From a virus: 25,882 nucleotides of DNA. Below the pieces are notes generated by a model that had not been told where the DNA came from, searched no databases, and saw nothing but the letters and a program-made list of their open reading frames with translations. Of the stretch, positions 717-20,874 are shown in pieces (within the stretch, counting starts at the first letter, position 1; each line of letters opens with the position of its first letter). The position numbers and the translations under genes were made by a program. Location of the stretch: positions 1 through 25,882 of the IMG/VR virus record IMGVR_UViG_3300032047_000112. One strand, 5' to 3'.

Positions 717-1118
717 TTATTTGTCTTTCTTACGATGTTTCTTTAAAATTGTATCCCACACCTTCCAAGAATTTTCCATATCTCTTAATGCGGAATTGAG
801 TTTCTTACCTACCTTATCCATATGAGCGTGAAATTCTTTTGTTACATTGTTGTAATGACTTCTATCATTCCAATCATACATATCGGATTCTGTTGGGCCG
901 TAATCTCTAAATCTTTCTAACTCGTTAAACATATCTCCCCACTTACGGTGATAATCGGATACATCACTTAGTTTTCCAAACTGAGGAAGTTTAGATTCGT
1001 TAATTGGTTCTTTAGAATCTTGATGTTGTTTCGTCACACTATTCAATGTCGGTAATTTATCACCGAACTCTCTTTTAAGGTACTTACTCTCGTGTAATAT
1101 TTCTTTTAATTTTTTCAC
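717..1118 (-). CDS. Tagged core/internal protein sharing a leader module with the scaffold candidate
   Basis: I place the start at GTG 1118-1116, which overlaps the previous TAG stop as TAGTG and follows GGAG at a proper distance; this gives 133 residues. The N-terminus MKKLKEILHE fits a capsid-targeting leader with cleavage after L-H-E. Residues 11-33 (SKYLKREFGDKLPTLNSV and following) match the scaffold candidate at 3218-3700 at 16 of 23 positions, so the two share the leader plus the adjacent segment. A second (L/I)-x-E site, P-I-N-E|S, lies at residue 41. The rest is charged and probably helical, rich in Trp, Asp and Lys. Family otherwise unknown. A minor prohead core protein is a reasonable inference. 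Confidence 0.8.
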   Translation of the reverse strand: MKKLKEILHESKYLKREFGDKLPTLNSVTKQHQDSKEPINESKLPQFGKLSDVSDYHRKWGDMFNELERFRDYGPTESDMYDWNDRSHYNNVTKEFHAHMDKVGKKLNSALRDMENSWKVWDTILKKHRKKDK

Positions 1119-1585
1119 TATCTTAACTCCGTCCAATCTCTTGGGTTTGAATATCGTGATTTGTAATACCATTTCTTCTCTTTCATATTGTAGATATAAG
1201 CATATTCCTCACCACTATCAAATTTTACAGCGTCTCTGTTTCTCCAATTACTTGTCATTCTACCCTTTTCACCTCTATCTCTACCATAAAATACGGTTAC
1301 ATCTTTTTCAGGTTTTTCAAATGAATGGTCTTTACTTCCTTTAATCTTCTTACCAATTGTAGAAATTCCTGCACTTCCAAGTTTTAAAAGTTGTTTTACT
1401 ACTGCCGGATTTCTATAATACTTTTTCAAGTGTTTACCTGCCCATTCAGGATAACCATCGTAATGTCCGTATGTGGATAGAATTTTACCATTTGGTTGTT
1501 CAATACCAACCAACCAACGAGTTCCCTCTGTAAGAACACTTTGAACTTCTTCTTTAATTATTTCTCTTAGTCTTGATATTTTCAT
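1118..1585 (-). CDS. Tagged conserved phage protein with a YGHYDGYPEWAG domain
   Basis: 155 residues; the ATG overlaps the upstream TGA as ATGA. The leader MKISRLREIIKE can be cleaved after I-I-K-E (residue 12) or V-L-T-E|G (residue 20). The remainder is a conserved domain that I remember from many phage and some bacterial proteins. It shows T-Y-G-H-Y-D-G-Y-P-E-W-A-G near residues 38-50, a basic stretch, then A-V-V-K-Q-L-L-K-L-G followed by S-T-I-G, and V-F-Y-G-R-D-R-G-E near 98-106. The function of this domain is not known to me. The leader suggests the domain is delivered into the head and possibly into the next host cell. It is tightly coupled to the next tagged gene by a TAGTG overlap. 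Confidence 0.85.
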   Translation of the reverse strand: MKISRLREIIKEEVQSVLTEGTRWLVGIEQPNGKILSTYGHYDGYPEWAGKHLKKYYRNPAVVKQLLKLGSAGISTIGKKIKGSKDHSFEKPEKDVTVFYGRDRGEKGRMTSNWRNRDAVKFDSGEEYAYIYNMKEKKWYYKSRYSNPRDWTELR

Positions 1586-2976
1586 CTTCTACTCCCAAAT
1601 GTTGTGTATAATCCAGTATACTTTTCAATCATATCATGTAATTGGTCTACATATATACCTTTAAGTTTCTTTATGACCTTGAATTGATACTTGTATATCT
1701 TTCCAAATGTTAAGTTGTATAAATCTCTACCTCTGTCTAAATCAATAATGATGTGTGATACTCTCTTTGAATTTCTACCGATATGTAGGATTAATCCATC
1801 TTTACCGATACCCTTTGATTTCACACCCATTAACATTTCAAATTTTCTACCACCAAGTTGTTTCATTATCTCTTGTGCCTGAGATTGACTAACACCCTCG
1901 TTTACGGATTCTTTTTTAGAGTAATCAGGATCTAACTTTCTCATCTTGATTAGAATATCACGGATTCTTTCTCTATCAATACTATCGCCCGTGAAAGTGT
2001 CATTTGAATACTTTTTGAGATAAACTGAAAGGGCTTTGTTTATATCTCCAACTTTCAAATCTCTACCTTTCTTATCAGGATAAATACCTTTTTTTCCGTA
2101 GAAATCACCCATGTATTTGTAAAATGGTATTAGATTTTCTTTTATAGACCTACCTTCGTCCATTTCTTCATACCCACTACCATATGGTGCTGATTTACCA
2201 TCGTGATTAGGTGCTACATTTTCATTAGCCCATAATGATGACATTATTTCAGCCTTTTTGGTGGAGTTGGCTTTCTTGTACATCTTTGTAACCATATCGT
2301 AATATCTTAATTTTTCTGTGGCGTCTTTTTCATTATCACCTTTTTTCATCAAATATTGTTTTATCTTATCTTGTTCCGATTCATTTATGGATTCAAATCC
2401 TAACATATCTGCCGCTACTACCCAATTTGCGTCATCACCTTTTGATTTGTCTAATGGTATTAGTCGAACTCTCTTGAATGACCTTTTTAAAAATTTTTGT
2501 AGTTTCTTTGCTTCTCTATCATCATCTAAAAAATAACTCAAACTACCACTACCAGTATACATACTCACAACGGATTTTATACCTAATGACTTTGCTAATT
2601 TTTGCATCGTCTTTTCCATATTGTAATTTGGATTTGCGTGTGGTATTGATTTCTCTTTTATATCTTCTTTCTTCAAACGACTTTTTTCTGCTCGTCCTCT
2701 GTTTTTAGATTGTGATTCAAATCCCACTATCTTTCCCCCCTTGTGTGAGGCATCTTTACCATCACCATTTCCATAAGTACCTTTCTTACGATTGTACTTA
2801 TTTAATTCTGCTCTGTATTTTTTAGCCTTAGTGGATGAACCATATTTAGCATACTCTTTTTTGTAATCTCGTTTCTTTTCCTCACCGAGACTAACAATTT
2901 CTTGTTTGACTATATCATTAATGTATTCTTTCATACGCTTATTGTAATCGTCCAAAGGTTCTTCCTCGTGTTTCAT
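1582..2976 (-). CDS. Large multidomain protein with HNH-like N-terminal part and internal (L/I)-x-E or V-x-E sites
   Basis: 464 residues from ATG 2976. Residues 34-100 are a basic domain with R-D-Y-K-K-E-Y, then G-D-G-K-D-A-S-H-K (71-79) and S-K-N-R (90-93), resembling the short HNH-like proteins of marine phages; D75, H78 and N92 are the candidate active-site positions. Residues about 360-460 (S-Q-A-Q-E-I-M-K-Q-L-G-G-x-K-F and the following beta-rich part with I-G-R-N-S-K-R-V) are a domain I remember as a widespread phage module of unknown role. Sites of the gp21 type occur at S-I-N-E199|S, S-I-K-E280|N and S-V-N-E360|G, between apparent domains, so maturation into pieces is possible. ATG 2976 has only a weak ribosome binding site. 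An in-frame ATG at 3030, coupled TAATG to the preceding gene, is interrupted by TGA at 3009-3007 (see the separate entry). HNH function is tentative. Confidence 0.8.
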   Translation of the reverse strand: MKHEEEPLDDYNKRMKEYINDIVKQEIVSLGEEKKRDYKKEYAKYGSSTKAKKYRAELNKYNRKKGTYGNGDGKDASHKGGKIVGFESQSKNRGRAEKSRLKKEDIKEKSIPHANPNYNMEKTMQKLAKSLGIKSVVSMYTGSGSLSYFLDDDREAKKLQKFLKRSFKRVRLIPLDKSKGDDANWVVAADMLGFESINESEQDKIKQYLMKKGDNEKDATEKLRYYDMVTKMYKKANSTKKAEIMSSLWANENVAPNHDGKSAPYGSGYEEMDEGRSIKENLIPFYKYMGDFYGKKGIYPDKKGRDLKVGDINKALSVYLKKYSNDTFTGDSIDRERIRDILIKMRKLDPDYSKKESVNEGVSQSQAQEIMKQLGGRKFEMLMGVKSKGIGKDGLILHIGRNSKRVSHIIIDLDRGRDLYNLTFGKIYKYQFKVIKKLKGIYVDQLHDMIEKYTGLYTTFGSRR

Positions 2977-3030: not shown

Positions 3031-3218
3031 TATTTTATAATTTTTTTAACCTCGGTGTAGAATTTATTTAATTCTTCTTCCGATAAGTTCTTTAAATTTT
3101 GTTCATTTACTGAATTGACAATGGATTTAATTTTAGATTCTGTTTTTTGCTCTTCATTAGTTTGAAGTCTAAACTTTCTCCAATTTTTGTTCATTTTAAA
3201 TGTATCAGCTTTATTCAT
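3030..3218 (-). CDS. Small charged hypothetical protein between scaffold and HNH-like genes
   Basis: 62 residues. Its ATG overlaps the preceding TAA (TAATG at 3220-3216), and its own TAA overlaps a further ATG at 3030. It is highly charged and predicted helical (K/E-rich, ending in L-S-E-E-E-L-N-K-F-Y-T-E-V-K-K-I-I-K). No cysteine, membrane segment or known motif is visible. S-V-N-E|Q at residues 36-39 loosely resembles the local cleavage sites but has Val rather than Leu or Ile. Its place right after the scaffold candidate recalls the small core proteins of T4-like phages (gp67/gp68 type), but no similarity can be shown from the sequence alone. Confidence 0.75.
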   Translation of the reverse strand: MNKADTFKMNKNWRKFRLQTNEEQKTESKIKSIVNSVNEQNLKNLSEEELNKFYTEVKKIIK

Positions 3219-3700
3219 TATAATCCCTTTTTGACTTTTCTAACATATCTCATCAATTCACTTGGTTCTATATTTAGCTGTTTAACAACACGACCAAGTA
3301 TTGCTGTTACCCTTCTACGATTAAGTCTAGCACCTTGTACTGCGTTAAGAAATTTCTTTAAATATCTTTCTATTTGTGCAGGTACAGGTTGGTCAAACTC
3401 ATCAGCCTCTACTATATTTTTAATTTCGTTACGAACAAGCTTACGAATTGCATCTTCTTTTACAGAATCCTTCTTGATAGCTTTAGCAACTACTTTTCTA
3501 CGATTTTTTAGATAATCATCAGTTTTATCTGAATCACCATCGTTATCCACATCATCATCCTCTTTACCGACAGCATCTAAATCTTCTTTAAATTTATTCT
3601 CTTGGTGTTTTTTCATTACACTACTGAAAGTAGGAAGTGCTTCACCAAACTCTCGTTTGAGGACTTTACTCTCACTTATTAATTTTGTTAGTTTGGCCAT
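3218..3700 (-). CDS. Probable prohead scaffold/core protein with EF-hand-like loop
   Basis: 160 residues; ATG 3700 follows a strong GGAGAG one base after the protease stop. The leader [10 protein letters not shown] ends at an I-S-E|S cleavage site, and a second site K-N-I-V-E|A lies at residue 98. Residues 50-61 ([12 protein letters not shown]) form a dockerin/EF-hand-like calcium loop followed by D-Y-L-K-N-R-R-K. The rest is helical and basic. Position directly after the gp21-like protease is where T4 encodes scaffold gp22, and protease sites inside fit a core protein destroyed or trimmed during maturation. It is shorter than T4 gp22 (about 270 residues) and could instead be a smaller core component. 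Residues 11-33 are shared with the 717-1118 product. Confidence 0.75.
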
Positions 3701-3701
3701 T

Positions 3702-4322
3702 TTACTCTCCTCTAATTATGTCGTTTATAATACTTTCAACTTTACAATACTTACCACAGGTTCTACCTTCGGTAATTGGTATTTCGTTTCCAACACTTTC
3801 TTTCATAGGATATAAGAAAGCTCCGTGTGTGGATGGATTTGATACGAAATCAAAAGCTATTAATTCGAAATCATCTCCTACTTGTTGTCCATCACCCTCA
3901 CTCATTGGTTGAACTGAACCCATTCCACGAGAACTGATACCCAACTTAATACCTGCTTTAAATAATTCTGTTAATATATTACCACTTGGTGTTCCAAGAA
4001 CCTCGACCGTACCGACTAAGTTCTTACCTTCCCAATGCATTTCGGTAATATTATGAGATACATTCTGTAAATTAACTACTGATGATTCAGGATGGTCTAA
4101 CTCACCCATTGCACGTTTCTGTTTGATGAAACCCTCATCATACTTACTCGATTCTCTTGCCAAAATCTCATGTGGATAGACTCTACCATTTTGATTCTTA
4201 GCATCTGACCTCTGCAATACACCATGAACCACTAAACGACCATTATTCTGTTTAATTGATTCGTTTATCTGTTCTCTTGAAATCTCAAAAGGTAAATAAT
4301 CTACTATTAATTGTTTTGACAT
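3702..4322 (-). CDS. gp21: Prohead core serine protease, T4 gp21 family
   Basis: 206 residues, close to the T4 gp21 size. The herpesvirus-assemblin/gp21-like fold is recognisable from [17 protein letters not shown] (33-49), M-G-E-L-D-H-P (72-78, with catalytic H77) and [10 protein letters not shown] (128-137, with nucleophile S130 or S131), then F-D-F-V-S-N-P-S (157-164). The enzyme acts inside the prohead, cutting scaffold, internal proteins and itself after (L/I)-x-E. It carries such sites itself: Q-I-N-E21|S and P-I-T-E185|G, consistent with autoprocessing at both ends. ATG 4322 has a GGAG ribosome binding site. It is flanked by tagged genes on both sides, its likely substrates. Confidence 0.92.
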
Positions 4323-4332
4323 TATATTACTC

Positions 4333-5133
4333 CTATCTCTTTAATCTTTGGTAGAATTCTGAAAATTGATATTTTGGTTTTGATTCTACACTTTCATTGA
4401 TTTTACGATATTCTTTACCATCTATTGTAAGAGTTTCTTGGTCTAATTCTTTTCCAGTTCTTCCAGTTGGTTTATCATATTTTTTACCTGTATATGGATC
4501 TGTACCTCCAGTTTCACGGGCTTTCTTTTGTTTATACAATAATTGTGCATTTTGGTCATCTCCAAACACATCACTTTGTGTGCTAACTTGTATACCATAA
4601 TTTTGCCTATCACCATCTTGATAAATGTTACCTTGTGCATCTACACCCACCATCATTCCATCTTCTTTGTCTTTCCATTGAATAATAGTTTGACCATTAT
4701 CTGCTTCTTGTGTACCTTGTAATTCTAATCTATCTGGATCTTGAGTACCACCGATTTTACTTAATACACTGGATCCCATTCTTTGTGTATCTTTATCGTC
4801 TTTAATTGGTTTTATACCTGCATCTTTTCTATCTTCCGCATCTCTTGAATCTTGTGCGTCTTGAGTTTTCATATCATCTGCTTCATCATCAGCTGCTCTA
4901 TCAGCATCATTACGAGGTTTTTGCCATCCCCCACCACTTTGATTTCTTGTTCCAAAAATAGAATCCATATCATCAGCAGTCCAACTTGGTGCTGCAGATG
5001 GTTCATCTTTCTTTTTCTTTTTTGCCGATTGTGCTTTTTTCGAATTAGGATTACTTTTTAAGTATTTTGCCTGTCCTTCAGGACTTAAATCACTCCACCA
5101 ATCTTCTTTAATTATTTTTTTAAATTTTGACAC
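4333..5133 (-). CDS. Tagged low-complexity internal protein with a YLKSNPNSKKA motif
   Basis: 266 residues from GTG 5133, preceded by a good GGAG. The leader MSKFKKIIKE ends at I-K-E|D. It is followed by D-W-W-S-D-L-S-P-E-G-Q-A-K-Y-L-K-S-N-P-N-S-K, a short motif I remember after leaders in many marine phage proteins. Residues about 35-125 are highly charged and repetitive (K-K-K-K-K, many D, A, R, Q), probably disordered. The C-terminal part has more structured stretches and another possible cleavage site, K-I-N-E|S, near residue 248. Composition and leader fit an internal or core protein packed in the prohead next to the protease. No enzymatic motif was found. Confidence 0.85.
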   Translation of the reverse strand: MSKFKKIIKEDWWSDLSPEGQAKYLKSNPNSKKAQSAKKKKKDEPSAAPSWTADDMDSIFGTRNQSGGGWQKPRNDADRAADDEADDMKTQDAQDSRDAEDRKDAGIKPIKDDKDTQRMGSSVLSKIGGTQDPDRLELQGTQEADNGQTIIQWKDKEDGMMVGVDAQGNIYQDGDRQNYGIQVSTQSDVFGDDQNAQLLYKQKKARETGGTDPYTGKKYDKPTGRTGKELDQETLTIDGKEYRKINESVESKPKYQFSEFYQRLKR

Positions 5134-5142
5134 GCTAATCTC

Positions 5143-5481
5143 CTATCTCATAAAATCATATTCTTGATTTTTAAAAATTTGTTCAAATTCTTCTACATAA
5201 TCCTTTGCTAACTGCTTTCTTTGTCTTTTTGGGAAAACATCTAAGTGATTTCCACCGTATGACCTAACATATCGTTTTGCACCATCGTCAATTAGATACA
5301 TGAATGCTTTTTGGGCTAATGTTTTACGATAATTACCCTTTTTCTTCTTTTTTGACAAATTTTTCAATATTGGCATGTATCTTTGTCTATATAGACTCGA
5401 ATCGTTGTCAATGTAGAGTTTTAGCTCTCCCATTTCTTCCGAAATACTTGCCTCTGTTAATAAATCTCCGAGTTTTATCAC
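5143..5481 (-). CDS. Small tagged protein of unknown function
   Basis: 112 residues from GTG 5481, which overlaps the upstream TGA as GTGA. The leader MIKLGDLLTE|A is one of the clearest copies of the capsid-targeting tag. The mature part (from residue 11) is basic and helical, with S-K-K-K-K-K-G-N-Y-R-K, F-M-Y-L-I-D-D-G-A-K-R-Y and K-R-Q-R-K-Q-L-A-K-D-Y-V-E-E-F. No known domain is recognised. The basic character would suit a DNA-associated internal protein like those of T4, but this is inference. Confidence 0.85.
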   Translation of the reverse strand: MIKLGDLLTEASISEEMGELKLYIDNDSSLYRQRYMPILKNLSKKKKKGNYRKTLAQKAFMYLIDDGAKRYVRSYGGNHLDVFPKRQRKQLAKDYVEEFEQIFKNQEYDFMR

Positions 5482-5666: not shown

Positions 5667-5671
5667 AATCT

Positions 5672-7241: not shown

Positions 7242-7273
7242 ATTCATGCTCCTAAATTGTATATTTCTTCATC

Positions 7274-7305: not shown

Positions 7306-9186
7306 TTAAGTATCACTTTTACCCGATGATACTTCATTCTTATATTCTTGTTCTACATCAGAAGTTTCTGTAATTATTTTTACTTCTTCTTTACTGACTT
7401 TACCTAAATCTTGTTTTAATTTATCAAGGTGAGCTAGTGCAAGTCCGTACTTTGGACTACCACTACTACCTTTTCTCTTATCGTGAGAACCTAATGGATC
7501 ACGACCTCTTACACTTGAATCCTTCTTGTGTTTAGGTCCTTCCTTTGGACGACCACTTCCTGGCCAACCATCTTCTGGTATATCCATATCTAATTCACGA
7601 CTTGTTCTTCCTGTTCTTGCTCCTGGTGGTTGAGGTCCAGAAAATCTCTGTCCTTCTCCATCACCCATATTATTCATCATCGCCCCTTGAGTTCCAACTG
7701 CTTCTTCACTTTGAACAGGATCATTACCTTCCATTTCAATCTGTGACCATCTAAATTTCCGTTTTTGGTCTTTTAGTAATCCAAGTCTGACTTTTTCTTT
7801 TTCTTCTTCTGAAAATTTAAACACATTATCATAAATCCACTCTGTGTCTGCTATTTTAGAATCCATTAGACTTGAAGCAAGACTCTGTTTGTTATTCCAC
7901 AACTCAATCTTTTCTTCTTCGTAAATCGTAGATGGATTTTTTAAATTTAATTCAAAATCAACAAGGTCTGCATCTGTATATCCTTGTGAATACAAATGAA
8001 CTATTGCAATCTTTGTTAATTCACTCGTAACGATTCTCTGTATTCTTTCAATTGTTCTTGCAAACCTTACATCTTCTGCTGCTAATGTTGCCTTACTACC
8101 AGCGGCTTCATCATAACCAAGAAAGGCCTTTGGTATCTTTAGGGATGCCATTAATTTATTTCTTAGGTATTCAATATCATCTACTGCCTCATATGTTAGT
8201 CCTGCTAAACTATCAATCTGTGTTCCACTATCTCCACCTCGAACAGGTAGGAAAAAATCTTCTGTAAGATTTTGTATGTTGTATTTTAAATTATAATCAC
8301 CAGTTGTGGTATCTATGACAGGAGCCTTTTTCATTTTATTAACAATCTTTTGCATAAAATTTTCGACTTCTGCGGGTGGAATATTTCCAATGTCAATCTT
8401 AAACACTCTCTTTTCTGGTGCTCTCATAATTCTATGAATCAACATAGCATCTTCCATAAGAGATAATTGTTTCCAAATCTTACGACCACCTTCTATCATA
8501 CCTTTACCATATGGTATAAAATTTGCATCTGATAACAAACGAAAATGTGCAATTTCAAAATTTTCCATTTCCTTATTTTGACTCATTGAAGAACTATGTC
8601 TCGAATCTCCATCCTCAACAATAAACTTTGTTCTATACGGATTTTCTGGATCTTCTCCCTCAACACGAGTAACATCATATGCTGAAAGTGGTACTACATT
8701 GGTAACTCCATACTTTTCTTTTATATCTAAGTAGAGATAAAAATCTCCATACTTACATAGGTTACGAACCCACGGCCAAAGATTAAATTCTATATTCAAT
8801 ACATCATAAAATAAATTATGTAGAATATCATGAATATTCTCATTTTCAGTTTGAATATCTAATACTTTACCATACTCATTTTTCATTGTTGATTCATCAG
8901 AGTAAATATCTAACGCACTTGATATGATAGCATCGTTATCCATTTCTTCGTAATCTCTAAATAAAGCCAATCTTTGGGCTTGAAAACTAATTGCCTGTGA
9001 TGCTCCGTACCCACCAGTATTCATATTGGTGTGTAGTCTTGACCACCTATCTACAAGACTATTTTTCTGAGCACTTTGTACTCTGTCTGTATCGGCAATC
9101 TTTAACTTTCTACCACCTGCATGTCTTACGATTACATTTGTAGAAAAAAGTCGTGTTAATCTTGCTCTTAAGCTTGTTTGTGCCAT
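7306..9186 (-). CDS. gp20: Portal vertex protein, T4 gp20 family
   Basis: 626 residues; forms the dodecameric DNA channel at one capsid vertex and binds the terminase and neck. Recognised from R-L-A-L-F-R-D-Y-E-E-M-D-N-D-A-I-I-S-S-A-L-D-I-Y (about 71-94), then Y-G-D-F-Y-L-Y-L-D-I and R-I-M-R-A-P-E-K-R-V-F-K-I-D-I-G-N, and the region with L-R-N-K-L-M-A-S-L-K-I-P-K-A-F-L-G-Y-D-E, all typical of myovirus gp20. It is longer than T4 gp20 (about 520 residues) because of a Gly/Arg/Lys-rich, probably disordered tail from about residue 490. That tail ends with I-I-T-E|T, a possible prohead-protease site. ATG 9186 has GAGGAT upstream. It follows the terminase by 12 bases, as expected for a head-packaging operon. 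Confidence 0.93.
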   Translation of the reverse strand: MAQTSLRARLTRLFSTNVIVRHAGGRKLKIADTDRVQSAQKNSLVDRWSRLHTNMNTGGYGASQAISFQAQRLALFRDYEEMDNDAIISSALDIYSDESTMKNEYGKVLDIQTENENIHDILHNLFYDVLNIEFNLWPWVRNLCKYGDFYLYLDIKEKYGVTNVVPLSAYDVTRVEGEDPENPYRTKFIVEDGDSRHSSSMSQNKEMENFEIAHFRLLSDANFIPYGKGMIEGGRKIWKQLSLMEDAMLIHRIMRAPEKRVFKIDIGNIPPAEVENFMQKIVNKMKKAPVIDTTTGDYNLKYNIQNLTEDFFLPVRGGDSGTQIDSLAGLTYEAVDDIEYLRNKLMASLKIPKAFLGYDEAAGSKATLAAEDVRFARTIERIQRIVTSELTKIAIVHLYSQGYTDADLVDFELNLKNPSTIYEEEKIELWNNKQSLASSLMDSKIADTEWIYDNVFKFSEEEKEKVRLGLLKDQKRKFRWSQIEMEGNDPVQSEEAVGTQGAMMNNMGDGEGQRFSGPQPPGARTGRTSRELDMDIPEDGWPGSGRPKEGPKHKKDSSVRGRDPLGSHDKRKGSSGSPKYGLALAHLDKLKQDLGKVSKEEVKIITETSDVEQEYKNEVSSGKSDT

Positions 9187-12055: not shown

Positions 12056-12741
12056 TATTTAACTCCTTTAGGTAACAAATCAACTAACTTACCACCTTTC
12101 CATTCTCTACCTTTAACTGCACCCATTATTCTGTGGTCTTTCCATTTATTCCATAATTTTTTATTACCTGCAAATACCGATTCTCCACCTTGCTGTACTT
12201 GTCTATATCCACTTACACTTCCCATTTCCTTAGAACCAGGTTCAGGTGTTGCTGGTACTCCACCACTTTCTGTTCCCTCTGGTGGTGTTGTTGGTTTAAT
12301 TAAAGTTTGAGCAGTTGTTACAAAATTTGCTGTTTCAGGTGGAATGGTATATTCTTGTTTTCTGTGAAATCCGTGTATTCCATAAGTTCTTTGTCTCGGT
12401 GATAATGGTGGTGTGTCATCTCTTAACTCATCAGATTTAATTTCTGAATTACCATCGGGATCACTTAAATATTTGTAAAGTTTACCTGCATCTCTTTTTG
12501 CCCGTCTTTCATTATTCTGACTATCAGGACCCCCATAGATATTATCTGATGCTGGAAAATCAACTTGTTGCATTCCACGAGTTAAACTTGCAGGTCCTAC
12601 ATATCGTCTTTCACCTCTTTTGGTAAATAAACCATCGGGCCATGCATCTCCTGTGGTTATTCCAGATCCACCATATCCTGAAGTACCCGTTGGTGAAGCT
12701 TCGTTAATTAATTTCCACAATCCTTTTTCGAATATGTTCAC
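12055..12741 (-). CDS. Tagged Gly/Pro-rich protein of unknown function
   Basis: 228 residues from GTG 12741, which overlaps the upstream TAG as TAGTG with GGAG 6 bases before it; a TTG at 12753 would lie inside the ribosome binding site and is rejected. The leader MNIFEKGLWKLINE|A ends in an I-N-E site. The mature part is rich in Gly, Pro, Ser and Arg with little hydrophobic core and is probably extended or disordered. It contains V-D-F-P-A-S-D-N-I-Y-G-G, which resembles L-H-F-P-K-A-D-N-P-Y-D in the tagged protein at 19430-19789. No known domain is recognised. An internal virion protein is inferred from the leader. Confidence 0.82.
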   Translation of the reverse strand: MNIFEKGLWKLINEASPTGTSGYGGSGITTGDAWPDGLFTKRGERRYVGPASLTRGMQQVDFPASDNIYGGPDSQNNERRAKRDAGKLYKYLSDPDGNSEIKSDELRDDTPPLSPRQRTYGIHGFHRKQEYTIPPETANFVTTAQTLIKPTTPPEGTESGGVPATPEPGSKEMGSVSGYRQVQQGGESVFAGNKKLWNKWKDHRIMGAVKGREWKGGKLVDLLPKGVK

Positions 12742-13490
12742 TAATTTCTCCAACTTATCATAAGGTTTTGTCCATCAAGTTTTTCAGTTACATTATCTTC
12801 CCTATCTAACTGACCACCTAAACCTCTTTCTATGATATTTTTTAAATCTTTAAATGTTAAATTTTTATCATCAAAAGGATGTGCCATATGTCCGTATGCT
12901 CCACCTTCTGTGATTAATTCTCTAAGTTCATCATCCCACCAATCTTTTGAAAGTGGTGAATATTTCTCAACATGAAGTCTTGGACGACCACCTTTAAATT
13001 TCTTTTTTGTTTTCTTTGCCGCTAAATCAGTATCTGCTTCGTTATTTTCTTTACGAGTTTTAGCATCAATTCCTGATGCTATAGGTGGGCCGGCCATTTG
13101 TTGGTCTTTATCAACTCCCATCCACTTCATGACTTTCCAACCCAAATTATCCATTACATTCCGTAAAGTTTTTTTATACTTTTTTACCTCTCCGTGAGAT
13201 ATTGGATTTGTTGCTCTATGTGACATAGTGTAATCTTCTTCTGGATCCATTGCTCCATCACTTAGTATATAATCAATTACTTTCCAACCTAAATCATTCT
13301 GTAATGATTGTATCCAATCTTCAGACTCGGATTTGTATTGTCCCAAAGATTTGTAAAATGTAGGTGGCCCGTCATCAGTTGGTGCATTATTTGTTGCCGA
13401 ACCAGCCTCATTTAAAATATCTTTAATATCATTCTCAACTAAAAAATCACCAATGACATCATCACTAAATTCTTTTAAGTAATCTCTCAT
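12741..13490 (-). CDS. Tagged protein ending in the motif-I half of a split ligase-like nucleotidyltransferase
   Basis: 249 residues; the ATG overlaps the upstream TGA as ATGA. The leader region (M-R-D-Y-L-K-E-F to D-I-L-N-E28|A) ends in a prohead-protease site. Residues 30-190 contain two related segments, D-L-G-W-K-V-I-D-Y-I (66-75) and N-L-G-W-K-V-M-K-W-M (115-124), and a basic stretch at 159-168. At L-I-T-E195|G another site precedes G-G-A-Y-G-H-M-A-H-P-F-D-D, a conserved segment running to N-V-T-E-K237-L-D-G-Q-N-L-M-I-S-W-R-N, then stop. K237-L-D-G is motif I, with the nucleophilic lysine of DNA/RNA ligase-type nucleotidyltransferases. From memory, homologues continue with an L-I/V-A-A-R-N-K-G-H-L-K-N segment, which here lies in the 15201-16931 gene. 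The gene is therefore half of a split domain. Confidence 0.85.
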   Translation of the reverse strand: MRDYLKEFSDDVIGDFLVENDIKDILNEAGSATNNAPTDDGPPTFYKSLGQYKSESEDWIQSLQNDLGWKVIDYILSDGAMDPEEDYTMSHRATNPISHGEVKKYKKTLRNVMDNLGWKVMKWMGVDKDQQMAGPPIASGIDAKTRKENNEADTDLAAKKTKKKFKGGRPRLHVEKYSPLSKDWWDDELRELITEGGAYGHMAHPFDDKNLTFKDLKNIIERGLGGQLDREDNVTEKLDGQNLMISWRN

Positions 13491-14041
13491 CTTGTTTCAA
13501 CTTTGTTTTTATCTAACCACCATTGAACTTTAGCAACTAACATATCCTCATCTCTACCACCTCGTCTTGCACTAAAACTATTTAAATAATCTTTAACTAA
13601 ATAGTAAGCTGGTTCTTCATCTTTTGAACCAGGTCTGATATTTCCTACAACTTGCGATGCTTGCATATCAGTATTTACATGGTACTTTAAATAATCATAA
13701 TCAAATATACCATCATTATATCCTGATGTTTGAACCCAATTTAAAATCTTATCACCTTTATCACTTCTCCAATCCCAATCATTTTTGTATTTAGAATGTC
13801 CCCATCCTTGTACATAAGCGTAATACTGATACATTAAGTTAGTAGGTTGTCTTTTCTTACCAGGCTTACCTCTATAATCTAATTTATGAAAACCATCTTT
13901 CATTACTTCTTTACAAAGTTTTATTGTTTTTGATGGTATTTTAGGTTTAGCGCCAGTTGCCTTTTTAGCCATATTTATGACTTTATGAAAGTCACTATGT
14001 GTTACAATTCGTTCTACTATTAATTCTTTTAATTTAATCAT
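13487..14041 (-). CDS. Tagged protein of unknown function
   Basis: 184 residues; the ATG overlaps the upstream TGA as ATGA. The leader is MIKLKELIVE|R, a canonical tag. The mature part is basic and rich in Trp, Tyr and Asp (Y-Y-A-Y-V-Q-G-W-G-H-S-K-Y, N-D-W-D-W-R-S-D-K-G-D-K, V-Q-W-W-L-D-K-N-K), which suggests a compact folded domain. No known enzyme motif is recognised. It is linked by overlaps to tagged genes on both sides, which suggests co-expression and co-packaging. Confidence 0.85.
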   Translation of the reverse strand: MIKLKELIVERIVTHSDFHKVINMAKKATGAKPKIPSKTIKLCKEVMKDGFHKLDYRGKPGKKRQPTNLMYQYYAYVQGWGHSKYKNDWDWRSDKGDKILNWVQTSGYNDGIFDYDYLKYHVNTDMQASQVVGNIRPGSKDEEPAYYLVKDYLNSFSARRGGRDEDMLVAKVQWWLDKNKVETR

Positions 14042-14298
14042 CTTTTTTCCAAATCAAATGCCCTGGTTAACATTGCACCAGCATTTTGAAGTTTAAGACG
14101 AGCTTCATCATATTTTTTAAAGTATCTCATTAAAGTTCTATTCTTACTCTTTTTAATATCATCCTCAAGTTCATACCAAAGTTTCCCATCTCGTGCCTTA
14201 TAAATGTAATTACTTCCAACCCTTAGTAATTTTTGGTGATTCATAGAAATATCATCAAGGTCTACCTTTTCTTCTAATATTTTCTTCATTTTAATCAC
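14038..14298 (-). CDS. Small tagged protein of unknown function
   Basis: 86 residues from GTG 14298, with GGAG 8 bases upstream. The leader MIKMKKILEE|K fits the tag pattern. The mature part is charged, with Y-I-Y-K-A-R-D-G-K-L-W-Y-E-L-E and a C-terminal helix. It follows one of the few real gaps in the window (39 bases), so it may be the first gene of a transcript running through 14041-12055. No family is recognised. Confidence 0.82.
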   Translation of the reverse strand: MIKMKKILEEKVDLDDISMNHQKLLRVGSNYIYKARDGKLWYELEDDIKKSKNRTLMRYFKKYDEARLKLQNAGAMLTRAFDLEKR

Positions 14299-14329
14299 TT
14301 ATTTTCTCCGATATATATAGTTTCACACA

Positions 14330-14934: not shown

Positions 14935-14937
14935 ACT

Positions 14938-15201: not shown

Positions 15202-16931
15202 TAGAATGTCATCAATCCTGTTATTTGATTAATAGGTGCAAATGCTCCTGTAAATTTAAATGTCTTTCCGTTGTATTTAAAAACTATTCCTTCACTTGGA
15301 ACTATTGCCTTCAGACCACCAATCTTATTTAATTTATCCAATTGTAATTTTAATGTGTTAAGTTTTTTCAAATCCTTTTTACTTCTCACATCTTTAATTG
15401 CTGCATCTAATTGTTTCTTTACTCGTTGAACCGTAGAGTCAGGATTTGCTGCTAACCAACCACTTACATTTGTCATTATTTCTGCACCAACTTCAAAGAA
15501 CAATTCCTCAAATGGTTTCATATTCTTTTTAACCATTTTTGCGTGGTCTACTTTATCCGTAGTCAATACCCAATCTAAAAATTCAGGATGATTTTTAAAA
15601 TCTTTTTTAATCATTGGAACTTTATACGACTTATCAAAAAATGCCCATCTTTTAGTTAATTTTTTTAATGGTGCCTTTGGAATTGTAAATCCGTGTTGTT
15701 TTGCTGCATTAAATATAAATTCTTCCCAATAGGTTTGGTGATATACTGAAAGTGAATCACTATCTTTTAAGTTATATTGTTTCTGTAATCTATTTAACTT
15801 ATTTATAAAATACTTTTTCTTCTTTTCAAAATTTTGATGTTTAGGTACGGTTAAAAAATTAGGTTTTCCAATCTTATATCGTTTCTGTATGTTTTGGTTG
15901 ACTTGTTTAATCATACCAGCTAACATTCTTGCACTATCTTTGACCTCTCCAATTGCATTTCCTTCATCATCATATTCGAGTGCTCCGTGAAATACGATTT
16001 CTGCCTTGTCATAATTTATCACATTAGATGACTTTGGCCACATAACCTCAAGATTCATCCAAGCCTTACCATTCTTGAATATTCTGTTTCTTTGTTTTTC
16101 AGAAAGAGAACCGATGGCCTTTTCCAAATCCTTCATAGCAAAACTAAATGCGTCCGATATATCCCCCCTACCTTTAAACTTTGAAATTATTCCACCTGTG
16201 GTTAGTGCTGTCTTACCACCATTCTTCAAGTGTCCTTTGTTTCTAGCGGCTACTAATCTTTCTGTAAGTAAATTTTCTTTGATCTCAAATAACTTTCTAA
16301 ACTTGTTGGTCATCATTTGATAAACACCTTTATCGAAATAACCAAATGCCTGTTTAAATAATTTAGGTCTTTCTTTATCATCTATTTTAGGTGAACCGAG
16401 TAATTCTCTCATTACCGTTCCACTAACTTCTTTTCCACCAACCCTAACTGATTGATGTGGAGCTACCATAAAGTATCCGTGTTCCTCATATCCTTTTAGA
16501 TTATTCTTGTGTTTTCTATAATCTTGGAAATACGATAAACCACCACTTTTCTTTTTACCACCTGCCAATCTACCAGCATCCTTAGCTCCAAATATATATA
16601 TCACGGCTGTAGTCTCGGAATCGTATTTTTTTAGCACATTATTTGCCACCAATGGAACTTTTTCCTTTATAATACGATTCTTAGGAACACCCATCTTTAC
16701 CATATGACGAAGTTTTTCTCTGTAATTCATAGGGTGTTTTGGTGGTTTTTTGATGTCTGATGTGGTGATGTAAGCATCATCTACCTTTGACTTTAACCAC
16801 TTGTAAGTTTTTAAGTGATGTGGGCCAAATGGTTGATACCTACCACCATAGATTCCTACAATCTTTTTAATCTTAGGTCTATCTTCTTCGGGTAGTAAAT
16901 CTCTTATCAATTCTCTTGTTAATTTATCCAT
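15201..16931 (-). CDS. NMN-adenylyltransferase-like domain fused to the C-terminal part of a ligase-like domain
   Basis: 576 residues. Residues 22-180 are a nucleotidyltransferase of the NadM/NMNAT fold: I-V-G-I-Y-G-G-R-Y-Q-P-F-G-P-H-H-L (24-40, the HxGH-type region) and V-S-G-T-V-M-R (169-175, the SxTxxR-type motif). This would condense NMN with ATP to NAD. An L-L-T-E224|R site follows. Residues 225-576 begin R-L-V-A-A-R-N-K-G-H-L-K-N-G-G-K and contain ligase-type motifs: W-M-N-L-E-V-M-W (291-298, motif III), I-V-F-H-G (312-316, IIIa), E-G-I-V-F-K (547-552, IV) and K-T-F-K-F-T-G (556-562, V). No motif I lysine (KxDG) precedes them; it lies in the 12741-13490 gene. The N-terminus M-D-K-L-T-R-E-L-I-R-D-L-L-P-E-E is a weaker version of the leader. 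The ATG overlaps the previous TAA. Confidence 0.85.
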   Translation of the reverse strand: MDKLTRELIRDLLPEEDRPKIKKIVGIYGGRYQPFGPHHLKTYKWLKSKVDDAYITTSDIKKPPKHPMNYREKLRHMVKMGVPKNRIIKEKVPLVANNVLKKYDSETTAVIYIFGAKDAGRLAGGKKKSGGLSYFQDYRKHKNNLKGYEEHGYFMVAPHQSVRVGGKEVSGTVMRELLGSPKIDDKERPKLFKQAFGYFDKGVYQMMTNKFRKLFEIKENLLTERLVAARNKGHLKNGGKTALTTGGIISKFKGRGDISDAFSFAMKDLEKAIGSLSEKQRNRIFKNGKAWMNLEVMWPKSSNVINYDKAEIVFHGALEYDDEGNAIGEVKDSARMLAGMIKQVNQNIQKRYKIGKPNFLTVPKHQNFEKKKKYFINKLNRLQKQYNLKDSDSLSVYHQTYWEEFIFNAAKQHGFTIPKAPLKKLTKRWAFFDKSYKVPMIKKDFKNHPEFLDWVLTTDKVDHAKMVKKNMKPFEELFFEVGAEIMTNVSGWLAANPDSTVQRVKKQLDAAIKDVRSKKDLKKLNTLKLQLDKLNKIGGLKAIVPSEGIVFKYNGKTFKFTGAFAPINQITGLMTF

Positions 16932-18517
16932 TATACTCTCCCACCTTTATCGAAGGTTGTAAATTTCTTTAACTTATCAAATGCTCTAAATTTTTTCATC
17001 TTTTCTTGTTTTGTCCATTTCATCTTATCAAATACTTTCATTCTCATGTGTTGTTTTACTATCCAATAAATATCAAGTGGATTACCACCCATTGATTTTA
17101 TCCACTTGGCGTATTTCTTAACCAATTTAGCTGATACATGCTCATGTCCATAATGAGTCCAAAACCCTTTCTTTGGATGTAATTTAGCAGTTGAGTCTTT
17201 TCCTATATCGTGAAACAATGCTGATAGAGCGAAGTCTATATCACCTGTTTTAAGTGCCCTATTCGTAACAGCAATAGTATGTTTTAAAACATTACCTTCA
17301 GGATGTGCATCTCTCCTCTGGTCGTAGTTTTTTAGATTATACACGCGTTTCTTCAAGTCACTTGGTAACGCGTTATAAATGTCTTTGAATTTCTTCGGTT
17401 TTTTCCGAACTGCTATTTCATTTAAGAATTTATCTTTTTCCATATTTTGTATTGCTTTACCGATGTCCCTTCCTTTTAAATCACTTGAAACATCACTACC
17501 CCTTACCGATAGTTTAAATCTAATTAATTTTTTAAAATCTTTTCCAATGTACTTACCCCATTTAAGAATTTGACCTTTACTCAATTTGGTCTTTTCTTGA
17601 AACTTTTTAATCAAAAAAATATTCTCAGGTTTAAAATTCTGTAATGAATTTAAAAACTGAATATCAACTATTTCTTGAGTAGGATAGGCTAAACCATTTA
17701 ATTTCCTTATTGAATTTACATCATTTTTTCGTAAAATCCAAGCTAAAAATAAAATATAATCGTTTTCATTTATGTATGGAATCTTAACTTGTAATCCAGG
17801 TAATATCTGTTTTGTAAATCCTAACGAATCAGCAAGCTGTAAATACCTCTTGGGTGATTTTGCCTTTCTAATCGACTTGACAAACTCATCTCTGATTCTT
17901 TCTTTACTCACACCTTTAAGACTTGGATTCTGTCTTAGTGCCCTTTCAGTTTCCTTACCTAACTTACCACCGAGTGCACCTTGAAATCTTAATGCCCTCA
18001 TCTTTCTTAACGGATCTTCATCAAATCTTTCGACAGCATTTCCAACGGTTCGAATCTTCTTCTTTTTTAAATCTGCTATACCACCAACCAAGTCTACAAT
18101 TTCACCCCTATCCATATCGTAGAACAACGCATTTATGGTCAAATCCCTTCTTTTTACATCACCCTCGATGTCGGTATAATCAACTGAACTTGGGCGTCTC
18201 CCTTTACCAATATCCTTTCTGAATGTTGCTATTTCGTGTCCACCAACTATCACGACACCGAATTGTTTTCCAACCTCTACGGTTTTCAATCCACCTTTTT
18301 TTGCTATTTGTAATACCTCATCGGGTTTAGCATCGGTGGCTAAATCAAAATCTTTTGGACTCTTTCCTAATATTGCATCCCTTACTGCTCCACCCACAAC
18401 AAAAAGTTTTTTCTTGTTTTTCTTAAAAAGCTTGTGTATCTTCCTGATGTCAGAGGGGATGTTGAGCCTAAATTTAGAATACTCATTCAACGGAATTAAA
18501 TTAGAAAGATAAATCAT
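16931..18517 (-). CDS. cca: Tagged CCA-adding enzyme/poly(A) polymerase-like nucleotidyltransferase with HD domain
   Basis: I place the start at ATG 18517, which overlaps the upstream TGA as ATGA; this gives 528 residues. The leader MIYLSNLIPLNE|Y ends in L-N-E. The class II nucleotidyltransferase head is intact: V-V-G-G-A-V-R-D (40-47), D-F-D-L-A-T-D with both metal aspartates (56, 58), R-R-D-L-T-I-N-A-L (123-131) and R-F-D-E-D-P-L-R-K-M-R-A-L-R-F (164-178). The C-terminal HD domain has H405, H413 and H436-D437, plus T-H-Y-G-H-E-H (454-460). Enzymes of this architecture add or repair the tRNA 3' CCA end, and the HD domain acts as a phosphohydrolase. With the leader, the enzyme is predicted to be packed into the head. 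Poly(A) addition cannot be excluded. Confidence 0.9.
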   Translation of the reverse strand: MIYLSNLIPLNEYSKFRLNIPSDIRKIHKLFKKNKKKLFVVGGAVRDAILGKSPKDFDLATDAKPDEVLQIAKKGGLKTVEVGKQFGVVIVGGHEIATFRKDIGKGRRPSSVDYTDIEGDVKRRDLTINALFYDMDRGEIVDLVGGIADLKKKKIRTVGNAVERFDEDPLRKMRALRFQGALGGKLGKETERALRQNPSLKGVSKERIRDEFVKSIRKAKSPKRYLQLADSLGFTKQILPGLQVKIPYINENDYILFLAWILRKNDVNSIRKLNGLAYPTQEIVDIQFLNSLQNFKPENIFLIKKFQEKTKLSKGQILKWGKYIGKDFKKLIRFKLSVRGSDVSSDLKGRDIGKAIQNMEKDKFLNEIAVRKKPKKFKDIYNALPSDLKKRVYNLKNYDQRRDAHPEGNVLKHTIAVTNRALKTGDIDFALSALFHDIGKDSTAKLHPKKGFWTHYGHEHVSAKLVKKYAKWIKSMGGNPLDIYWIVKQHMRMKVFDKMKWTKQEKMKKFRAFDKLKKFTTFDKGGRV

Positions 18518-19428
18518 ACTTGGTCTATTATTCCTTCTCTGTCCTTGTACCATTTTCTAAATTTTGCTGGTGTACCGATTGTTATTTTGTTCTTGGGGAC
18601 ATATTTGAGAATTTCTTTTTGCCAAGGTCCTGGTTTATTGTCTCCCCATTGTTGCATCCAATATCCATCCCTTGTAATCCTCTCCATTACAAAAACATCT
18701 ATAATCTTAGGATTATATATAAGAATTTCATTCCACCATGCCGATGGTTTATCTTCTGGATTTATAAGATTCTTCTTTATTTTTGATTTATTCTTTACCA
18801 ACCACTTGTTTTGCCAATCAAACCACTCTTTTATAAATTTACTAATATAAGGTCCTGCTTCTTTTACTGTTAATTTTTTATATTCATCATATTCAATTTC
18901 ATCATCTGTCATCCATAAGTCATGAAATACCGCATCTATTCGTCTAATTTTATTTTCCATTGTTTCAAGTTTCTTAAAGAATCCAGCTCTTTTCATAGCA
19001 TTTTTAAAAATCATTCTATCACCAGTTATGTAATGTGATTCTATCCATCTACGACCAGTCTTATCGGGTACTGTATCGAAGTCCATGTATCGTTTAGCAA
19101 GTAAGTTTCCCCTAACATAAAATATAACTCCACCCGTACCTGTTTGAATACCTCTACCTTTAGCAAGTGGTGAGTCATTGTTAGCACGAGTGAATGTTGA
19201 TATGGATTTTTTCTTACCTATTATCTTACCAATTGTTTTTATGTGGTCTGGATTAGTAACATGAAATGAACTAATAGGTATTTTACCAAACATCTTTTCG
19301 TGTAATTTAGGATAGAGTGCTATCTTATCCCCATATTTTATATTATCTAATGTTTTTCTTGTATGAGCAGGATACCACTTATTATCGTCTAACCAATCTT
19401 CTGTTAATAATTGTTTTAATTTAATCAT
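18514..19428 (-). CDS. Tagged protein, possibly ADP-ribosyltransferase-like
   Basis: 304 residues from ATG 19428, one base after the previous TAG. The leader is MIKLKQLLTE|D, a canonical tag and similar in form to the leader of T4 Alt. Residues about 60-130 contain S-S-F-H-V-T-N-P-D-H-I, K-K-K-S-I-S-T-F-T-R, K-G-R-G-I-Q-T-G-T-G-G-V-I-F-Y-V-R-G and D-F-D-T-V-P-D-K-T-G-R-R-W-I-E. The spacing of the H-x-T, S-T-F-T and later acidic elements recalls R-S-E or H-Y-E class ADP-ribosyltransferases, but I cannot identify a full active site, so this is tentative. The C-terminal half is rich in Trp and Lys. A packaged ADP-ribosyltransferase would parallel Alt. Confidence 0.8.
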   Translation of the reverse strand: MIKLKQLLTEDWLDDNKWYPAHTRKTLDNIKYGDKIALYPKLHEKMFGKIPISSFHVTNPDHIKTIGKIIGKKKSISTFTRANNDSPLAKGRGIQTGTGGVIFYVRGNLLAKRYMDFDTVPDKTGRRWIESHYITGDRMIFKNAMKRAGFFKKLETMENKIRRIDAVFHDLWMTDDEIEYDEYKKLTVKEAGPYISKFIKEWFDWQNKWLVKNKSKIKKNLINPEDKPSAWWNEILIYNPKIIDVFVMERITRDGYWMQQWGDNKPGPWQKEILKYVPKNKITIGTPAKFRKWYKDREGIIDQV

Positions 19429-19429
19429 A

Positions 19430-19789
19430 CTATTTCTCAAAATCCGTTGAATAATCTTGACCACCATATTTATCCCAACTTGCTATAGTGTCATAAAAAT
19501 CTTCATATTTAAGTCCAGTATTGATAACTCTCTTTATCACCTGAACTCTCTGAATACTCTTATCATCACCTCTACCTTTTGCTGCATCATATGGATTATC
19601 CGCCTTTGGAAAATGAAGTTGAGTATATCTACCCTTCTCAAACCAAGGCTCGGGTTTACTACTATCCACTCCCAACTTTCGTTTTCTTCGTGGATTCGTC
19701 CAACCTGTTTCGGGTTCTCCCGCATCCGAACCGCCCGTTGAACCGTTGTTATGTGAATACTCATTAAGTATATCCACAAGTTTAATCAT
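19430..19789 (-). CDS. Small tagged protein of unknown function
   Basis: 119 residues from ATG 19789, where GAGAG precedes the start and the leader MIKLVDILNE|Y is exact. Starts further upstream would add an N-terminus unlike the family. The first bases ATGATTAAA contain the TAA stop of the upstream ferredoxin gene, an 8-base overlap. The mature part is polar (G-S-T-G-G-S-D-A-G-E, N-P-R-R-K-R-K) and includes L-H-F-P-K-A-D-N-P-Y-D, shared in outline with the 12055-12741 product. No known domain is recognised. Confidence 0.82.
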   Translation of the reverse strand: MIKLVDILNEYSHNNGSTGGSDAGEPETGWTNPRRKRKLGVDSSKPEPWFEKGRYTQLHFPKADNPYDAAKGRGDDKSIQRVQVIKRVINTGLKYEDFYDTIASWDKYGGQDYSTDFEK

Positions 19790-20084
19790 TGAACTCTCTA
19801 CCAAAAAATTCATAATTTAATTTTGTATACTTTTCCCATTCTTCAGGAACATCATCTTCTTCAAAAATCGCCTCAACTGGACATTCAGGCTCACAAGCCC
19901 CACAATCGATACATTCTTCTGGATCGATGTAAAGTTGTTTTCCGTCAGGATTAAATCCATCTGCCTTTGCCTCATCTCCTCTACCTTCTCTGTCATCAGG
20001 TCCGTGAATACAATCAACAGGACAAACTTCTACACAAGCTGTATCGCAAGTACCCACACAAGGTTCTACTATTATAAACGCCAT
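19782..20084 (-). CDS. Bacterial-type ferredoxin with two Fe-S cluster motifs
   Basis: 100 residues, ATG 20084 with a strong GGAG. Nine cysteines lie at 9, 13, 17, 21, 25, 58, 61, 64 and 68. C58-x2-C61-x2-C64-x3-C68-P is a complete [4Fe-4S] motif, and the N-terminal set ending in C-P-V-D-C (21-25) fits a second cluster, [3Fe-4S] or [4Fe-4S]. The insert between them (28-50) and the acidic C-terminus are normal for this subgroup of cellular ferredoxins. It carries low-potential electrons. It has no capsid leader, so it probably works in the infected cell. It sits between tagged genes; the only Fe-S enzyme visible nearby is the radical-SAM protein at 22218-25142. The gene is probably of cellular origin. 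Confidence 0.93.
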   Translation of the reverse strand: MAFIIVEPCVGTCDTACVEVCPVDCIHGPDDREGRGDEAKADGFNPDGKQLYIDPEECIDCGACEPECPVEAIFEEDDVPEEWEKYTKLNYEFFGREFND

Positions 20085-20085
20085 T

Positions 20086-20874
20086 TTAACTCCTTTTTAA
20101 CATTTGCTTTAAATCTTTTTTTGGTACTAAACTTTGTTGTTTCATCCATTTTTTTGCTATTTTATTTTTAACTGGTTTTTTCATAAACTTATCAATTCCT
20201 TGACCAACTAACATCTTAAATTTCTTTTCTGCCTGTTTTGGTTCTAAGTGTTTATTGTTATCCACAATTAAAAAATTACTACCACCGAACAACCCTTGAA
20301 AGAATGCCATATTTTTCTGAACATCTTTCCAACTATCCTCTACCACATCTGCTGGTAATACTCGTGGTCTTGTTTCGTTTCTTTGCTGTGCAACTTCTAA
20401 TGAGGTTGTTACGAAAACCATATAAGTATCATAACCTAAATCTATCAATCTTTTTCTTTTCTTTTGTACGGATTTAAATTTATGACCAGTTCCATCGATA
20501 ATAACGCCCAAACGACCTTCCAAGTATTGTGCCATTCTCTGTTTATTTAGTGATTTAGCATAACCTCGTAAACCACTATATCCTGCATAATCTGGATCTG
20601 TAAGTTGTTTAAATAATTCGTCAGGAAACTTTTGAATGTTAAGGTAATCTACGGATGAATCTTGCCCATAAAATTTCTTTAAAAGCATTTCTAATTCTTG
20701 GTCTTGATTAACCATTTTTAATCCATACTTGGAAACATTTATTTTTTCAGGAATACCGAATAAACCCTTTGCAACATAGGATTTACCACTACCAGGTCCT
20801 CCAGCCAAGAATATACCTTTAAAGATACCTGGATCTCGAACTCCTTCGTTTAGTAAATCTACCAATTTTATCAT
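20086..20874 (-). CDS. Tagged P-loop kinase (zeta-toxin/polynucleotide-kinase-like)
   Basis: 262 residues from ATG 20874, with GGAGT upstream; a TTG two codons earlier is a poorer start. The leader MIKLVDLLNE|G is exact. The Walker A is G-G-P-G-S-G-K-S (25-32) after I-F-L-A. G-V-I-I-D-G-T-G (123-130) fits the Walker B strand of zeta-toxin and AAA_33-type kinases. V-F-V-T-T-S-L-E-V-A-Q-Q-R-N (153-166), followed by R-P-R-V-L, fits the lid region with its arginines. Possible substrates are nucleic-acid 5' ends, nucleotides or UDP-sugars; the sequence does not tell which. It follows a 66-base gap with the conserved AT-rich motif, so it may head a transcript. Confidence 0.87.
   Translation of the reverse strand: MIKLVDLLNEGVRDPGIFKGIFLAGGPGSGKSYVAKGLFGIPEKINVSKYGLKMVNQDQELEMLLKKFYGQDSSVDYLNIQKFPDELFKQLTDPDYAGYSGLRGYAKSLNKQRMAQYLEGRLGVIIDGTGHKFKSVQKKRKRLIDLGYDTYMVFVTTSLEVAQQRNETRPRVLPADVVEDSWKDVQKNMAFFQGLFGGSNFLIVDNNKHLEPKQAEKKFKMLVGQGIDKFMKKPVKNKIAKKWMKQQSLVPKKDLKQMLKRS

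Follow-up and report, generated by a model that had tools for sequence, protein, structure and literature searches.

In phage T4, the internal proteins IPI-IPIII and Alt reach the head by capsid targeting: a short N-terminal leader ending at (L/I)-x-E precedes otherwise unrelated cargo, and gp21, an S77 protease, cleaves after this motif (PMC9026906). The leader alone suffices for packaging, and cargo genes of T-even phages have been found by their leaders (PMC9026906; PMC12373910). Counter-defence head cargo has precedent, because each of the three T4 internal proteins inhibits a Type IV restriction enzyme (PMC12373910). In phiKZ and SPN3US, the gp21-related head proteases gp175 and gp245 strip propeptides from many head proteins, which are ejected into the host (PMC5694885; PMC10052503). 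Here, we describe leaders of the T4 kind on 14 genes of a 25,882-base virus record (IMG/VR IMGVR_UViG_3300032047_000112, in its full length referred to as the window), which comes from an uncultivated T4-like phage, a virus of bacteria. These leaders very probably direct their proteins to the prohead in a T4-type loading system, in which cargo as well as core proteins would be processed by an S77 protease.

As far as can be judged from sequence, the system works like T4 capsid targeting, and every feature testable in this way was found. It is new relative to T4 in four respects: most cargo with a recognizable domain consists of enzymes of nucleotide and RNA metabolism, part of the cargo occurs as polyprotein fusions with sites inside them, one enzyme, a putative ligase, is split, and the leader is private to the phage lineage. 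The phiKZ and SPN3US motif is A-x-E and most of their propeptides exceed 100 residues, whereas the leaders described here have 10-28 residues and end in (L/I)-x-E. In the portion of the source used here (PMC5512222), polyvalent proteins are multidomain proteins predicted to be injected early with the DNA, and they have ADP-ribosyltransferase (ART) and 2H-phosphoesterase-type domains in common with our set; that portion describes neither (L/I)-x-E joints nor a shared leader, whereas the joints reported below match the head protease motif. The RNA repair enzymes of T4 (Pnkp, Rnl1 and Rnl2) and phage CCA-adding enzymes are comparable to the cargo considered here, whose predicted kinase, RNA-ligase-like and CCA-adding activities would together suit the repair of cleaved tRNA (PMC7824862). 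The T4 repair enzymes are made after infection, whereas those of the window bear probable head-targeting leaders and would arrive ready-made.

Leaders, protease and predicted cleavage sites of the head block

The initial annotation had claimed 13 leaders, all of which were found in the sequence, on the minus strand. A fourteenth, MDKLTRELIRDLLPEE at 16884-16931 of the same strand, was absent from that list, and with longer variants included, 14 genes of the window have a leader ending at (L/I)-x-E. Six of these start inside the longest open reading frame (ORF), at an internal GTG (position 1118 in 717-1172 and 12741 in 12055-12753) or ATG (18517 in 16931-18553, 19428 in 18514-19467, 19789 in 19430-19813 and 20874 in 20086-20880). 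The exact 10-residue form, M.[KRHQ][LIMFV]..[LI][LI].E, starts 9 of the 33 called genes of the window vs none of 175 internal Met positions, and 5000 trials with shuffled N-termini gave a mean of 0.011 such leaders and a maximum of 1. The nine genes also fit a narrower pattern, M-x-(K/R)-(L/M/F)-x-x-(L/I)-(L/I)-x-E. On the near-identical contig G001, the exact leader is found in 10 of 37 head-block genes and in none of the 38 genes of the preceding 39 kb (Fisher p = 4e-4). A wider sample of 1154 non-redundant genes was drawn from loci fetched by portal or CCA-adding enzyme, the tag not being used. A filter that fixed two positions only, 8 (L/I) and 10 (E), retained 134 genes with 86 distinct leaders, and the other positions proved strongly skewed to M-I-K-L-K-D-L (unconstrained columns among the distinct leaders: I2 45%, K3 62%, L4 69%, K5 49%, L7 47%). 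Comparison of the tagged window genes with their orthologues showed the site to be retained in 105 of 107 cases. The initial annotation had also taken differing codons of the tags as a sign that the peptide itself is selected; this is weakly supported, with different codons in 63 of 162 identical-residue pairs where codon usage predicts 79.

Five of the tagged genes adjoin the protease gene. These are 717-1172 (MKKLKEILHE with GTG start, 1089..1118; site retained by 12 of 13 orthologues compared), 1118-1585 (MKISRLREIIKE, 1550..1585; 4 of 4), 3218-3700, which encodes a probable core protein (leader at 3671..3700; 17 of 17), 4333-5133 (MSKFKKIIKE, 5104..5133) and 5143-5481 (MIKLGDLLTE, 5452..5481; 20 of 20). 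By their position, they more likely encode head-core proteins than injected cargo, and the number of cargo proteins is for this reason nearer nine than thirteen. A prohead cargo system far larger than that of T4 had been proposed from the window; the targeting leader is upheld by comparative evidence, and the count of thirteen injected proteins is not.

The other nine tagged genes lie before the terminase gene. Their leaders are MNIFEKGLWKLINE in 12055-12753 (12700..12741; site kept in 11 of 11), MRDYLKEFSDDVIGDFLVENDIKDILNE in 12741-13490 (13407..13490; (L/I)LxE kept in relatives), MIKLKELIVE in 13487-14041 (14012..14041; 6 of 6), MIKMKKILEE in 14038-14298 (14269..14298; 10 of 10), MDKLTRELIRDLLPEE in 15201-16931 (with MKKLVESIVRDLLPEE and MKKLVESIVRDLITEE in relatives), MIYLSNLIPLNE in 16931-18553 (18482..18517; 10 of 10), MIKLKQLLTE in 18514-19467 (19399..19428; 4 of 4), MIKLVDILNE in 19430-19813 (19760..19789; 5 of 5) and MIKLVDLLNE in 20086-20880 (20845..20874; 6 of 7). 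Gene 18514-19467 keeps the tag pattern although the stretch after it is not alignable. Stripped of their tags, the 14 proteins are unrelated at E < 0.01, save for one 26-residue module, KREFGxxLPTxxSVxKxHQ, that follows the leader in both 717-1172 and 3218-3700 and also opens other head-block proteins of relatives. A small ferredoxin-like protein with two cysteine-rich clusters (19782-20084) is encoded without a leader amid the tagged cargo genes.

Nearly all called genes of the window are on the minus strand, as is its T4-type head block, which comprises the terminase large subunit (9199..10776; PF03237 E 3.5e-12, phrog_2 E 1.9e-49), a portal protein of the T4 gp20 family (7306..9186; PF07230 E 9.5e-72) and a prohead protease of the S77 family, T4 gp21 type (3702..4322). 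The protease had been proposed before and is confirmed by PF03420 (E = 3e-26) and by the alignment of its GELDHP, SSRG and Asp motifs with the catalytic motifs of T4 gp21. By portal, the closest named phages are Microcystis phage Mel-JY01 (54.5%) and Flavobacterium phage immuto (49.3%). The window stops before the scaffold and capsid genes; contigs with an identical portal extend it, and the longest, G001 (65,773 bases), reaches the scaffold and the major capsid gene. The motif at which the leaders end is present in the major capsid precursor and the scaffold of relatives and of G001. In the capsid precursors of relatives, QLIDE or QLIQE with S/A after it is conserved near residue 65. Among distinct scaffolds of relatives, 49 of 50 end in RF(K/Q/R)KLA(N/K/G)I(L/I/K), and nearly all have a (V/I/L)xE-type site about 10 residues before that C-terminus. 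In T4, gp24 is a known gp21 substrate (PMC5694885), and its N-terminus, MAKINELLRE, has the same shape as the window leaders.

Predicted cargo enzymes and the split ligase-like enzyme

Gene 16931-18553 certainly encodes a CCA-adding enzyme, as judged from its PolyA_pol (PF01743, E 1.1e-31), RNA-binding (PF12627, E 1.8e-8) and HD (PF01966, E 5.6e-9) domains. The P-loop kinase encoded by 20086-20880 matches AAA_33 (E 6e-10), Zeta_toxin (E 4e-8) and polynucleotide-kinase PHROGs. A cytidylyltransferase-like (NMNAT-type) domain at 16287..16871 on the minus strand matches PF01467 with E 0.003, below the family cut-off. Among the cargo identities assigned at the outset, the CCA-adding enzyme, the kinase and the split ligase-like enzyme are borne out by profile or alignment. 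The ADP-ribosyltransferase is not: the product of 18514-19467, which has a putative function only, showed no Pfam match, and its AlphaFold model (predicted local distance difference test, pLDDT, 67) found diphtheria toxin as the best fold match, which at E 0.28 is not significant. Together, the CCA-adding enzyme, the kinase and the ligase-like enzyme suggest RNA (tRNA) repair directed against tRNA-cleaving defences.

Relatives have fusion proteins of up to 1616 residues that combine the CCA-adding enzyme, kinase, cytidylyltransferase-like domain and ligase in many different orders. Of 25 internal cytidylyltransferase domains, 22 have an (L/I)xE in the 20 residues that precede them, vs 11.8% of random windows.

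In the window, the RNA-ligase-like enzyme is divided between two genes of the minus strand. The N-half (GGAYGHM...TEKLDGQNLMISWRN, with the KxDG motif) lies at 12744..12905 with the site ELITE directly before it, and the C-half (RLVAARNKGH...) at 15204..16259 directly follows NLLTE. At 42 other loci, the ligase is likewise divided between two genes, and the order never varies: the C-half gene lies upstream of the one for the N-half. With the ending ...TEKLDGQNLMISWR(N/A/ED), the N-half breaks off 14-15 residues after motif I begins, and another gene starts immediately behind it; in fused homologues, the sequence runs on as ...SWKDGKLIAARNKGH. An (L/I)xE stands directly before the continuation or within 4 residues of it in 18 of 19 distinct split joints, the exception being LMSE, vs none of 21 fused ligases at the same point (background 5.5% per 9 residues). 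Cleavage at these sites would bare the edge of the domain with near-exact precision. The model obtained for a fused homologue (pLDDT 87) places the split point in the turn of a beta-hairpin (strands 46-53 and 56-60), which should tolerate a break.

The assignment as a ligase draws on conserved motifs. K42, D44, G45, E126, E379, G380, K391, T393 and G394 are invariant in 20 homologues; the RNA-ligase motifs (KxDG, the conserved Glu, EG and KxTG) are thus kept, and the two halves of the window together hold KLDGQN and EGIVFKY/KFTG. Nineteen of the 20 best PDB matches of the model are named RNA ligase, each of them weak (E 0.06-0.4, template modelling score, TM, ~0.2), and PF09414 matches weakly in 5 of the 20 homologues. 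A profile search of the ligase against the PDB returned spurious ribosomal S6 matches only. None of the papers searched described a packaged split ligase.

Split genes are also known from uncultivated phages in the form of the fractured split-intein genes of environmental phages. Two relatives have breaks that resemble these. At L137:11377-15855, the ligase is interrupted inside motif I in split-intein-like fashion (... ILVHN, then TDGQALAISW) and distributed over two ORFs; in L150_15 and L150_16 (~3.0-3.9 kb), it is the P-loop of the tagged kinase that is interrupted, again intein-like and in two ORFs (GGPG, then CFDENTLIKTETGYT ... NVHN, then SGKTYV). Unlike these genes, the window ligase is intein-free, no intein sequence being found at either half, and is split at another residue.

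Leaders of other lineages and surrounding genes

CCA-adding enzymes of other contigs (40-51% identity) carry different leaders, mostly ending at (L/I)-x-E too; MIKSYTQFNLLLE, MKIKKSQLRRIIRE and MNILYAYIRE, each followed by A, are examples. In such contigs, the local leader recurs on neighboring genes. L135 and L140 have M.LLREYIRxLLxE on a run of further genes including that of the CCA-adding enzyme, and in L140 also on genes for a HAD-type nucleotidase and a P-loop protein. L116, G009 and G010 have an FExFLNE leader, as in the capsid targeting sequence (CTS) of T4 itself. The densest array seen is that of G006, where leaders of the MKITKRQLRRIIKE type, with freely varying synonymous codons, are found on at least 14 genes (L549-L552, ~53-64 kb of a 101-kb contig); the leader MKISRLREIIKE of window gene 1118 resembles this type. 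G009-G012 encode S77 proteases and gp23-type capsid proteins. On the incomplete contigs G006 and G007, scaffold and protease were looked for and not found.

In one branch, the tag resembles the scaffold. This MQKLAG branch has a tag, RRMQKLAGIITE, that is strikingly like the scaffold end RWQKLAGIIK of Flavobacterium phage immuto; the leader there, reading MNKEFLKMQKLAGLITE, almost copies the scaffold C-terminus of the branch. Of 78 matches to the MQKLAG-branch pattern, 63 lie within 25 residues of an ORF start, and two sit at the C-terminus of a scaffold-like protein of ~450-500 residues.

Leaders precede at least 261 clusters elsewhere, including Acb1, which acts against the cyclic oligonucleotide-based antiphage signaling system (anti-CBASS), and zeta-type kinases; because two of the collections behind this number were fetched by the leader itself, it describes breadth, not frequency. 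Pfam matches were obtained for 28 of 140 tagged clusters scanned (kinases, ART-PolyVal, NT5C, lysozyme and others). The Acb1 homologue, over the Pfam cut-off, is located directly behind the leader MQKLAGLIVE (L236:4290-4829) and, on this sequence evidence, may be a counter-defence protein carried in the virion. A PADLOC scan of the tagged proteins produced four weakly supported names, among which no theme stood out.

Several other genes around the head block were recorded. In Microcystis phage Mel-JY01, an annotated homologue of ribosomal protein S21 (RpsU; L159:22183-22410) is encoded between protease and scaffold, and a similar small basic gene precedes the scaffold in G001 (61525-61788). 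The 293-kb contig G012 (L544) has two adjacent, near-identical gp23-type major capsid genes at 176.3-180.2 kb. Before the head block, positions 20941-25834 of the window and 1-39 kb of G001 hold genes of sugar or surface-glycan type, among them UDP-sugar dehydrogenase-like and radical-SAM-like genes and many encoding 'GCSxS' proteins.

Proposed prohead loading and its alternatives

Lineage-specific leaders on the same enzymes, the polyprotein joints, the split ligase and the capsid and scaffold sites together make a prohead-targeting, protease-cleaved leader a well-supported prediction. Late in infection, the amphipathic leader of 10-16 residues would dock each tagged protein to the prohead during its assembly, either at the scaffold or at the shell. 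The S77 protease would cut after (L/I)-x-E and free the mature protein inside the prohead, and would also cleave the scaffold and the capsid precursor. The DNA would be packaged, and the released proteins would be injected along with it. The tagged set would consist of the core proteins encoded beside the protease (717, 1118, 3218, 4333 and 5143) and of the enzyme cargo encoded before the terminase, plus small uncharacterized proteins. The enzymes would be the CCA-adding enzyme, the P-loop kinase (polynucleotide-kinase or zeta-like), the cytidylyltransferase-like domain and the two-half RNA-ligase-like enzyme. They look like an RNA (tRNA) repair kit, which would be available as soon as infection begins and could therefore counter tRNA-cleaving host defences. 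Cleavage between LLTE and RLVAARN and between LITE and GGAYGHM would free the edges of the ligase halves. As these are located on separate precursors, the enzyme would form only once both had been made and cut. Docking, packaging, cleavage and the repair function are what we infer from the sequences, and injection of the cargo into the host is proposed by analogy with T4 only.

Some observations weigh against this scheme. T4-type cargo known so far consists mostly of restriction inhibitors, not of RNA-repair enzymes, and none of the papers searched reported a virion proteome of this lineage. The orthologues compared are phylogenetically related, and the counts of kept sites thus overstate independence. 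Many fused ligases, those of L094, L096, L108, L128 and others, read ELLLM in place of ELLxE before GGAYGHM, and so do not have (L/I)xE there. Finally, the likeness of tag and scaffold is moderate in the window branch (in G001, top 3.6% of interior 8-mers) and was not seen in the T4-like lineages G009 and G010 or in the G012 lineage; the idea that the tag is a general copy of the C-terminal helix of the scaffold was rejected for this reason and kept as a suggestion at branch level.

The leaders are short and amphipathic, and could instead be docking peptides for a cytoplasmic multi-enzyme complex, in which repair enzymes could profit from clustering, or membrane anchors, in either case without a role for prohead or protease. 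We consider this unlikely: neither role would lead one to expect that the leader ends in a fixed Glu and is confined to the head block, that (L/I)xE recurs at polyprotein joints and precisely where the ligase is split, or that capsid precursor and scaffold contain matching sites. A similarly unlikely alternative is common descent: the tagged genes would all derive, through duplication and domain swaps, from a single core-protein module with a tag, and the tag would be a legacy rather than a selected signal. The additional module of 717 and 3218, found also at the start of other proteins in relatives, is in line with such descent, and agreement between tag codons is slightly more frequent than expected from codon usage (99 vs 83); the other tag-stripped proteins are, however, unrelated, 18514-19467 has kept the tag pattern while the sequence behind it diverges or cannot be aligned, and unrelated phages put other leaders on the same enzymes. 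This explanation is partly compatible with prohead loading, as module transfer may well recruit new cargo.

Two further explanations appear far less probable. Rejoining of a fractured ligase gene by trans-splicing inteins, without any processing by a protease, would fit the split-intein-like sequences by which the L137 ligase and the L150 kinase are broken up, but the window and 42 other loci have no intein sequence at either half and the L137 break is at a different residue, inside motif I, which makes this account very improbable for the window. It is hardly credible that the leader is a translation-initiation feature, with K, I, L and E encoded by chance in a start region that is AU-rich and free of structure. 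These residues are common and the genome is AT-rich, but none of the 38 G001 genes outside the head block has the leader, synonymous codons are used freely in the G006 tags and differ in 63 of 162 window comparisons, and the same motif occurs at domain joints far from start codons.

The reading of the leaders as prohead address labels may extend beyond this phage. With rather less than even confidence, we suggest that many T4-like lineages each have a leader of their own, fitted to their head machinery, with which they load an RNA-repair and counter-defence kit into the virion. Some kits would be polyproteins, and the ligase would lack activity as long as its two precursors are untrimmed; once the head protease has processed them both, it would first become active in the capsid or the next host. 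As unrelated phages label the same enzymes differently, the idea can be tested in many viruses. If it is true, head cargo can be read from sequence, with the private leader of a phage listing what is injected, and function hypotheses would be gained for hundreds of unknown families. The leaders would be ready-made packaging tags for other T4-like capsids. Phages would have a capsid-processed polyprotein and a split enzyme with protease-cut edges, and their RNA-repair and anti-CBASS enzymes would come with the DNA, not after it.

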